Shown here one piece after another: positions 52,067 through 53,359 of a stretch of DNA of 64,000 bases (the first letter of the stretch is position 1; each line of letters starts with the position of its first letter). This DNA is from Corynebacterium pilosum DSM 20521 = CIP 103422 (GTDB lineage: Bacteria > Actinomycetota > Actinomycetes > Mycobacteriales > Mycobacteriaceae), in assembly GCF_000373805.1 (NCBI RefSeq), contig NZ_KB892461.1, positions 1-64,000 of the forward strand, written 5' to 3'. The notes beneath the pieces were generated by a model. That model was not told the DNA's origin, did not search any database, and saw only the letters and a program-made list of their open reading frames with translations. The position numbers and the translations under genes are program-made.

Positions 52067-52102
52067 AAATCTGTGGATAACAATGTTGTTTTCCACAGAT
52101 TT
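52067..52102. promoter_or_regulatory. Near-perfect 17-bp inverted repeat containing a DnaA-box-like pair
   Basis: AAATCTGTGGATAACAA (52067-52083) and TTGTTTTCCACAGATTT (52086-52102) are complementary except at one position, with a TG centre. The left arm contains TGTGGATAA, a perfect DnaA box on the other strand; the right arm has TTTTCCACA, one base off. It lies 58 bp upstream of the DUF222-HNH gene and may be an operator, a hairpin or a DnaA-type site. Confidence 0.65.
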
Positions 52103-52159
52103 CGGACATTTGCGGCTTGTGTCCGGCGGCGTTGGGGGCAGCGTTTTAGCGTTGGGGCC

Positions 52160-53359
52160 ATGAACCTGATCGACGCGCTGGTACAGATGGGCACCGCAGC
52201 CATGACGCTGCTGGGCCAGCTTGCCGACGTGCCCGCCGACAACCTCCTCGCCCGCGGTGCCGAGGCAGACACCGTGCGTGGCTACTACAAGCTCGTCGAC
52301 GTCTACTACGGCACCACCGGGTCAAGGAAGCAGCAGCGCCTGGCTCGGGAGGCCGCGGTGCGCAATGGCCACGGCATGGACCGGCTGCGCCACATCGAAA
52401 ACTACGTTGCCCGGGCGCACAACAACGCCGACAAGTGGCCGCTGCGCCGCCGGCTCGCCGAGTTCTCCGGGCACACGAAGGATTTCCGGGTGTTTGCTCG
52501 GGAGCAGCTCGCGGCGTTGAGCAAGCCCGGCAAGGAGGCTGGCACCCGCGACTACCGCGTGACCAAGCACGCCGACACCAACGATGCCACCATGAGCCTG
52601 CGCGGCACTCAGGCCGAAATCAGCGAGATTGACGCCCGGATCCGCGACTATGCGGAGCAGAACGACGTGCCTGTCGACGAGGCCGCCGTCGCTGTGATGA
52701 GCACCGGGGGCGGCGAGGCGATCTATGGCGCGAAAATTTTGATCCCGCTCGATGTGGGTCTGGCTTTGCTCAATGGCGAAGGCGACGATGCGATCCTGAC
52801 CACCAGCCTGGGCGCCACCATCACCGGGCACGAGGCGATGGCGATGAAACTTGGCCCGATCGCCGAATTCGTCGGCCTGACCAACGTCGACGGGCCCATC
52901 AGCTTATCGACGGGGCACCTGACCGAAGGCAACGAACCCATCACCACGCGAGAAGCGCTCGAGCGGCTGCTGGAGGCGTGCAAAAAGTCCGGGGCCGAAC
53001 CTCCACCGCCCGAAGCCATCGAGGTAGCGCTGCGGCGCACCCCCACCCGAAAGCAACGCGCGCTGCTCGAAGCTTCGCAGATCGTGTGCGGTGGCGAGGA
53101 GTGCACCGTGCCCGCCCACCGCTGCGAAGTCAACCACAACGTGCCCTATTCGCGCGGTGGGCTGACGGTCATGTCCAACTTGTCGAAGCTGTGCGGCTAC
53201 CACAACGGCAAAGCGGGCGCTGCGGAGCAATACCGCAACGTCGCGGGAGAGGTACACCGGATTCTGCCGGGCGGGCGCCTCGTACGCAACGAACACCCAG
53301 TAGCGCAGCGCAACCCGATCCGCACCCTGTTCGAGACGGGGTTTAGGACAGGCCCGTGA
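52160..53359 (+). CDS. DUF222 (13E12 repeat family) HNH endonuclease
   Basis: 399 residues. An N-terminal DUF222 region (about 1-300, charged helices such as WPLRRRLAEFSGHTKDFRV) is followed by an HNH domain with two outer cysteines (CGGEECTVPAHRCEVNHN) and NLSKLCGYHN. Proteins of this type are related to 13E12 repeat proteins that are multicopy in mycobacteria and corynebacteria. The role is unknown; a selfish or phage-like origin is possible. The tail overlaps the fhs stop by 17 bp, convergent. Confidence 0.87.
   Translation: MNLIDALVQMGTAAMTLLGQLADVPADNLLARGAEADTVRGYYKLVDVYYGTTGSRKQQRLAREAAVRNGHGMDRLRHIENYVARAHNNADKWPLRRRLAEFSGHTKDFRVFAREQLAALSKPGKEAGTRDYRVTKHADTNDATMSLRGTQAEISEIDARIRDYAEQNDVPVDEAAVAVMSTGGGEAIYGAKILIPLDVGLALLNGEGDDAILTTSLGATITGHEAMAMKLGPIAEFVGLTNVDGPISLSTGHLTEGNEPITTREALERLLEACKKSGAEPPPPEAIEVALRRTPTRKQRALLEASQIVCGGEECTVPAHRCEVNHNVPYSRGGLTVMSNLSKLCGYHNGKAGAAEQYRNVAGEVHRILPGGRLVRNEHPVAQRNPIRTLFETGFRTGP

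Follow-up and report, generated by a model that had tools for sequence, protein, structure and literature searches.

A probable DnaA-box promoter of putative competence type and the multicopy HNH nuclease family apparently attached to it in Corynebacterium

Introduction

What is the role of an inverted repeat located directly upstream of an HNH nuclease gene in Corynebacterium pilosum? The repeat lies within a 64-kb stretch of the genome (hereafter the window, comprising the whole of the DNA analysed around this gene), and the original prediction described it as a DnaA-box-like element preceding a DUF222-HNH gene, proposing that a repeat shared by such genes might be the target or recombination site of their products. 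The best reading of the comparisons presented here is a DnaA-box promoter of competence type, to which a multicopy HNH family appears to be attached. With a probability of roughly 0.6, the opposed DnaA boxes would act as an activator site in the upstream part of a leaderless HNH promoter, one of a class that also serves comEA-comEC.

Architecture of the repeat and of the window promoter

The two 17-nt arms of the repeat are 94% complementary (16/17 positions) and separated by a 2-nt gap, in agreement with the earlier description of arms differing at a single position; the repeat is DnaA-box-like, the distal box matching the consensus at 9/9 and the proximal box at 8/9 positions (Table 1). The boxes face each other with 8 bp between them and are the only occurrences of TTNTCCACA in the window. 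Downstream, the -10 hexamer and the ATG at 52160 are placed such that the transcript is probably leaderless, starting at the ATG itself, with the listed open reading frame representing a longer frame with an earlier start.

Table 1 Features of the inverted repeat and the downstream HNH gene, numbered from the first nucleotide of the window.
Feature	Position	Strand	Basis
Left arm of inverted repeat	52067..52083	+	
Right arm of inverted repeat	52086..52102	+	
Distal DnaA-type box, TGTGGATAA (TTATCCACA on the minus strand, 9/9), -88 from start codon	52072..52080	-	
Proximal box, TTTTCCACA, 8/9 of DnaA consensus, -71 from start codon	52089..52097	+	
Clade-specific 3' extension of proximal box, GATTTCGGACAT	52098..52109	+	
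-10 hexamer TAGCGT, 7 nt 5' of start codon; transcript predicted to be leaderless	52147..52152	+	Sequence
HNH nuclease gene, 399 aa	52160..53359	+	Frame listing (earlier start there), HNH motif

When a 30-nt version of the repeat was searched with up to three mismatches, the window returned one match, versus 0/100 shuffled sequences. This result, together with conservation at orthologous loci, makes a chance palindrome extremely improbable. The same very low probability applies to a terminator hairpin of the upstream gene: in one relative (L103) the pair does lie within a long stem that ends in a run of T residues, but direct-repeat versions of the element (the copies at C24:144264 and C13:85686) are unable to fold in this way. 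Hairpins and terminators were therefore rejected on the grounds that the spacing varies and direct repeats occur, as was a XerCD dif-like 11-6-11 site, an idea suggested by the 28-bp length. A REP-like dispersed repeat was also discarded, as the genome contains just six close copies.

Among 15 aligned sites from three species, the proximal box TTTTCCACA was identical throughout, an invariance partly preset by the collection of these sites with a pattern near TTTTCCACA. The extension was conserved in 14 of the 15, apart from A/G changes at two positions, with locus L030 deviating.

The HNH protein

The designation of the downstream gene as DUF222-HNH proved partly right. The HNH motif is recognisable, although it scores below the Pfam threshold (14.2 bits against a cut-off of 21.4, which two paralogs exceed), while the protein has no match to DUF222 (PF02720) in Pfam. 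Residues C310, H326, N340 and C345 are invariant in 42 proteins, and C315 and H348 nearly so; the protein also matches a PHROG HNH family (E 5e-5). Profile comparison linked it to five DUF222/HNH paralogs of the genome (hhalign probability 99), most strongly in the HNH part. An AlphaFold2 model (mean pLDDT 82, pTM 0.58) comprised a confident helical first third, a weak region at approximately 190-260 and a fairly confident HNH end. Searches of the PDB yielded weak partial HNH matches by fold, with nothing at E 0.001 or better, and weak matches by sequence (best E 0.011). A plasmid or phage origin was rejected, as no relatives were found there at E 1e-5, and so was a defence role, for which the only PADLOC match, to type II restriction, was weak (E 0.0055).

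Copies of the repeat in the C. pilosum genome

Across the genome, the 30-nt repeat (up to three mismatches) occurs at six places, compared with none in the control. Four of these precede HNH genes of one subfamily, while the copy at C1:55379 precedes yraN-comM and that at C8:39955 precedes a DUF4192 gene. The yraN and DUF4192 sites were found again in two other species (G141 and G088), so that the possibility of a repeat unique to this locus and unconserved was not borne out. Within the fetched 3 kb around the six yraN and DUF4192 sites of the three species, no member of the HNH family was present. One HNH copy (L008, C30:1-420) is interrupted approximately 60 nt past its start codon, close to a contig end, by sequence that by eye resembles the end of an insertion element.

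The looser pattern TGTGGAN{4,34}TCCACA matched 25 places in the genome, versus three for the reversed control. Fifteen of these contain a full TTATCCACA arm: seven lie before HNH genes and two around dnaA, while single places precede yraN-comM-dprA, DUF4192, an ssb-type gene, an Abhydrolase_8 operon, a gene encoding a 294-aa protein and a ParD-like ORF. Of the ten places lacking a full arm, two belong to a cluster of boxes on C19 and another is intragenic (C35:89991). Several of these loci merit separate mention. At L133 (C31:16655), a box pair at -75/-59 precedes a small ORF followed by the Abhydrolase_8 gene, and a box pair in another genome (G221, L104) precedes a similar gene arrangement; the L133 arrangement is possibly a further member of the promoter class. 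At L173 (C1:284120), a pair at -76/-60 precedes the 294-aa protein, which has no match in Pfam or NCBIfam and adjoins a gene that by eye is dnaG-like. At L171 (C34:11271), a pair lies approximately 140 nt before the 86-aa ParD-like ORF, which by eye looks like an antitoxin.

Within the HNH subfamily of this genome, all nine readable 5' ends have a TTNTCCACA box at -60 to -72, whereas none of five more distant DUF222/HNH paralogs (two with PF02720, three HNH) has one within 300 nt. The proposal that the repeat is common to DUF222 genes thus holds for further genes of the HNH subfamily, here and at 45 of 66 related loci described below, but not for the two PF02720 genes or the three distant HNH paralogs. 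The boxes of the window gene lie at -88/-71, those of DUF4192 at -87/-70 and those of comEA at -109/-61; the C. pilosum comEA also has the same -10 element as the HNH subfamily promoters. The boxes of the ssb-type gene (-124/-108) and of yraN (-116/-99) lie farther from the start codon than usual. Boxes before dprA and ssb genes likewise occur in the window clade at a greater distance from the start codon, though the ssb, yraN and DUF4192 sites were all found through the motif itself and give no genus frequency. ComEA, ComM, DprA and SSB were identified by Pfam. Because the box also precedes non-HNH genes, the repeat is first a promoter element and not a dedicated HNH target; at the window gene it is the upstream part of the HNH promoter.

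Distribution and geometry at HNH loci across the genus

A genus scan for the clade motif (up to two mismatches) found it in 3/151 genomes, and a sequence-model scan gave a match at E 0.05 in 82/242, with values below 1e-7 confined to G000, G141, G088 and G085. As strong matches are restricted to so few genomes, the long form of the repeat is clade-specific; the box pair is not. Forty match places, hand-picked from the genus-scan lists and then read, contained TGTGGA..TCCACA pairs, variable in their spacers, that precede HNH genes from several subfamilies and, at six of these places, ssb-type genes (SSB was identified by Pfam in five of the six and by eye in L112). Two other patterns were encountered during these scans. 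Six fetched places in one genome (L117-L122, G149) are near-identical and carry a dispersed repeat containing TGTTTTACACAGATTTCGGGATTTTGATGTAAAAAATATC, which is different from the box pairs, and L135 (G141, C1:1877806) has a clade-type motif oriented away from the start of a nearby RtcB RNA ligase gene.

An HNH subfamily model (alignment A2) identified members in 23 of 31 genomes, with 1 to 17 matches per genome having the family (mean 8, split genes counted twice). Loci were then chosen without reference to the motif, comprising 30 returned loci (two from C. pilosum) and 40 hand-picked from eight genomes among rows starting near the protein start (G005 was omitted as close to G004); exclusion of four partial loci (L219-L222) left 66. 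A TTNTCCACA box on either strand, with its start between -110 and -40, was present at 45/66 loci versus 0/593 control windows, bearing in mind that the loci come from related genomes and are not independent. The remaining 21 loci have no exact box in this interval, including seven of the nine from genome G012. In the 40 hand-picked loci, an exact pair occurred in 18, versus 0/120 control windows and 0/40 for the reversed pattern.

The position of the box is tightly constrained, with 36 of the 42 forward boxes lying in -80 to -50 starting at -60 to -64. Start codons were set by a TANNNT at the -10 place (63/66), so the hexamer frame is built into these values, while the box position is not. The -10 form TTTAGCGT was the commonest in HNH promoters (12/41) and in comEA promoters (5/27), and as a hexamer TAGCGT, the -10 of the window gene, was the most frequent in both groups (14/27 at comEA). 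In 24 inverted HNH pairs, start-to-start spacings fell at 16, 26-31, 39, 47-49 and 59-60, with a best period of 10.9 bp (p = 0.0095 on 11 distinct values versus uniform spacing). This helical periodicity is indicative, as the loci are related. One could suppose that the boxes titrate DnaA or act as replication-control sites of the datA/DARS type whose closeness to promoters has no regulatory meaning, and the occurrence of these boxes at oriC would fit; but the narrow range of box-to-start distances at both HNH and comEA genes, the common -10 and the helical spacing make this very unlikely.

The box upstream of comEA-comEC

In an even draw of Corynebacterium genomes (G001-G030, excluding G005 as well as G020 and G026, which belong to the chosen set), ComEC was present in 27/27, and it was also found in 20/20 genomes of the chosen set, many of which had been picked for motif matches. 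The C. pilosum ComEA has HHH_3 and SLBB domains by Pfam, and the other comEA genes were found by BLAST. A TTNTCCACA box was located upstream of comEA in all 27 genomes of the even draw, while control windows within the comEA loci contained one in 3/1526 cases. Box positions cluster at -53, -60 to -63 and approximately -73, with one at -44 (G025); the comEA start is ambiguous in G013, and a later start than that of the longest frame was assumed in G024 and G017. Direct pairs 18 nt apart occurred in six of the ten comEA loci of a second batch from this draw (the first batch comprised 17), some with TTGTCCACA. In G088, from the chosen set, a box pair lies immediately 5' of comEC (L178). Beyond Corynebacterium, an uncontrolled count gave 9/20 genera with an exact TT[AGC]TCCACA on either strand between -110 and -39, measured from the comEA frame as found. 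With such a box before comEA in all Corynebacterium genomes sampled, the site constitutes a directly testable regulatory candidate.

The candidate binding protein

The 9-mer TTATCCACA is given as the DnaA consensus in the available text of PMC11317965, and the same boxes are found at oriC: 119 TTNTCCACA boxes occur in the approximately 1 kb after dnaA across 30 genomes, with none in G251. All 30 genomes encode one DnaA domain IV match each. The consensus GTTATCCACAG is alike for comEA, HNH proximal, HNH distal and oriC boxes, with a weaker flanking G at oriC, although the boxes were gathered with TTNTCCACA and the third letter and flanks alone are informative. On this basis, the binder of the repeat is probably the replication initiator DnaA.

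The assignment is made with reserve because the box letters at comEA and oriC covary weakly (rho 0.36, p 0.09, permutation p 0.044, 23 genomes) and because the pair geometry is unlike the rule for E. coli, where, in the portion of PMC11317965 available, DnaA is described as preferring direct double boxes 2-3 bp apart. The window pair is inverted with 8 bp between boxes and does not conform, and nearly all other pairs, whether inverted or direct, have at least 7 bp between boxes. Confidence in DnaA is slightly reduced, and that in another regulator slightly raised, because the logo core was preset by the search and because the ssb and yraN boxes lie farther from the start codon. A different protein could occupy a DnaA-box-like site within the same promoter architecture and gene set, either a dedicated regulator or an activator acting with an alternative sigma factor. 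In addition to the weak covariation and the divergent geometry, this alternative draws on the -10 TTTAGCGT common to the promoters, and on the window clade itself, where the TTTTCCACA variant is a weaker DnaA match and is followed by the extension GATTTCGGACAT, which is absent from the general logos of comEA, HNH and oriC boxes. Against it, the letters around the box match those of oriC boxes genus-wide, flanking G included, and the third letter is mostly A and less often G at both comEA and oriC. Such a regulator is a possibility to be taken seriously, though we consider it the less probable case.

Copied HNH units and the target hypothesis

The earlier suggestion of a target or recombination site finds some echo in the duplication of HNH genes. 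Among pairs at least 80% alike within one genome, L398/L399 are 97.9% alike from -63 to +167 past the stop, L400/L401 93.1% alike from -94 to +14, and L406/L407 94.8% alike from -76/-77 to just inside the stop. The copies in G019 are alike from between -88 and -112 until about the stop, and the similarity of L007/L008 begins 6 nt before the distal box. In other HNH pairs, from G016, the likeness is limited to the 3' half. These patterns are suggestive of copied HNH units (80-98% alike) that would begin at or near the box, end about the stop codon or beyond, and lie between unrelated flanks, though the left edge is suggestive only because a conserved box would anchor the alignments.

If the repeat were the target or integration end of an HNH element, the nuclease would cut at the box or beside it, and sites of this kind would be where the unit spreads, as the shared left edges, the ends about the stop codon, the unrelated flanks and the L007/L008 boundary might imply. 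This is improbable given that the box precedes comEA in 27/27 genomes, and, in three species, yraN and DUF4192 at sites whose fetched 3 kb contain no gene of the HNH family; no empty site was seen. Moreover, boxless HNH copies in G012 are duplicated with comparable left edges (-42 to -126, ending at +109 to +281), and a conserved edge box is enough to anchor an alignment. An HNH-specific target as the sole role of the repeat was consequently rejected, since the same site lies before comEA, yraN and DUF4192; what survives of the suggestion is that the likeness of closely similar HNH copies within one genome starts at or near the box, amid unrelated flanks. A more tentative variant combines both elements: DnaA would directly control a competence regulon, and the HNH genes would be selfish units comprising hardly more than box, promoter and nuclease gene, active alongside DNA uptake and spread by transformation or through the repair of breaks, the DnaA box serving as both switch and left end. 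We regard this variant as rather unlikely.

A putative promoter class and its relation to known systems

Returning to the favoured reading, the Corynebacterium promoter class would consist of a box around TTATCCACA at approximately -53, -62 or -72, often a second box farther upstream at helical steps, and a -10 TTTAGCGT with the start codon approximately 7 nt beyond. It would drive comEA-comEC as well as the HNH genes and, in the window clade, DUF4192, with related box pairs farther upstream of yraN-comM-dprA and an ssb-type gene. The proposed mechanism builds on the general background of class I activation, leaderless transcripts and the DnaA consensus: DnaA would occupy boxes aligned along a single side of the helix and, as class I activators do, touch RNA polymerase, activating rather than repressing transcription. 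The genes for DNA uptake, DNA processing and HNH nucleases would then be co-expressed as a competence programme responding to the state of DnaA. The common promoter suggests that a Corynebacterium nuclease-gene family may be controlled jointly with DNA uptake, and provides this multicopy family with a functional context.

Control of DNA-uptake genes in Actinomycetota is reported as little known, and for Micrococcus luteus the signal or cascade acting upstream is described as awaiting identification (both in the available part of PMC12849477). New M. luteus loci affecting the com promoter have been described, with DnaA not mentioned in the accessible sections (PMC8467076), and the word 'competence' is absent from the portion of a DnaA review that could be consulted (PMC8203912). 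Among the literature matches listed, no paper connected comEA or HNH genes of Corynebacterium with DnaA boxes.

The closest parallel for the proposed regulation is found in E. coli, where DnaA acts as a transcription factor at double boxes of nrdA, purH and polA, according to the text available of PMC11317965. As in those DnaA-regulated genes, the Corynebacterium promoters have paired TTATCCACA boxes upstream that are the same as the oriC boxes of their own genomes. Unlike them, the Corynebacterium pairs are inverted or widely spaced in helical steps and lie at a fixed position in the promoter, and the candidate targets are DNA-uptake and HNH nuclease genes.

With respect to the nuclease, the window family resembles the DUF222/13E12 repeat HNH proteins (PF02720) in being multicopy, in its C-terminal HNH and in its profile match to the DUF222/HNH paralogs, but differs in that the window protein has no PF02720 match and the two PF02720 genes of the genome have no box. 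The family is also reminiscent of free-standing HNH homing endonucleases as generally described, in that short units of promoter plus gene appear to be copied to unrelated sites. Finally, the competence regulons of Bacillota (ComK, ComX), named as background in PMC12849477, offer a parallel in that comEA-comEC of Corynebacterium and, in the window clade, perhaps also dprA and ssb-type genes have a common promoter element; in contrast to those regulons, this element is a DnaA-type box.
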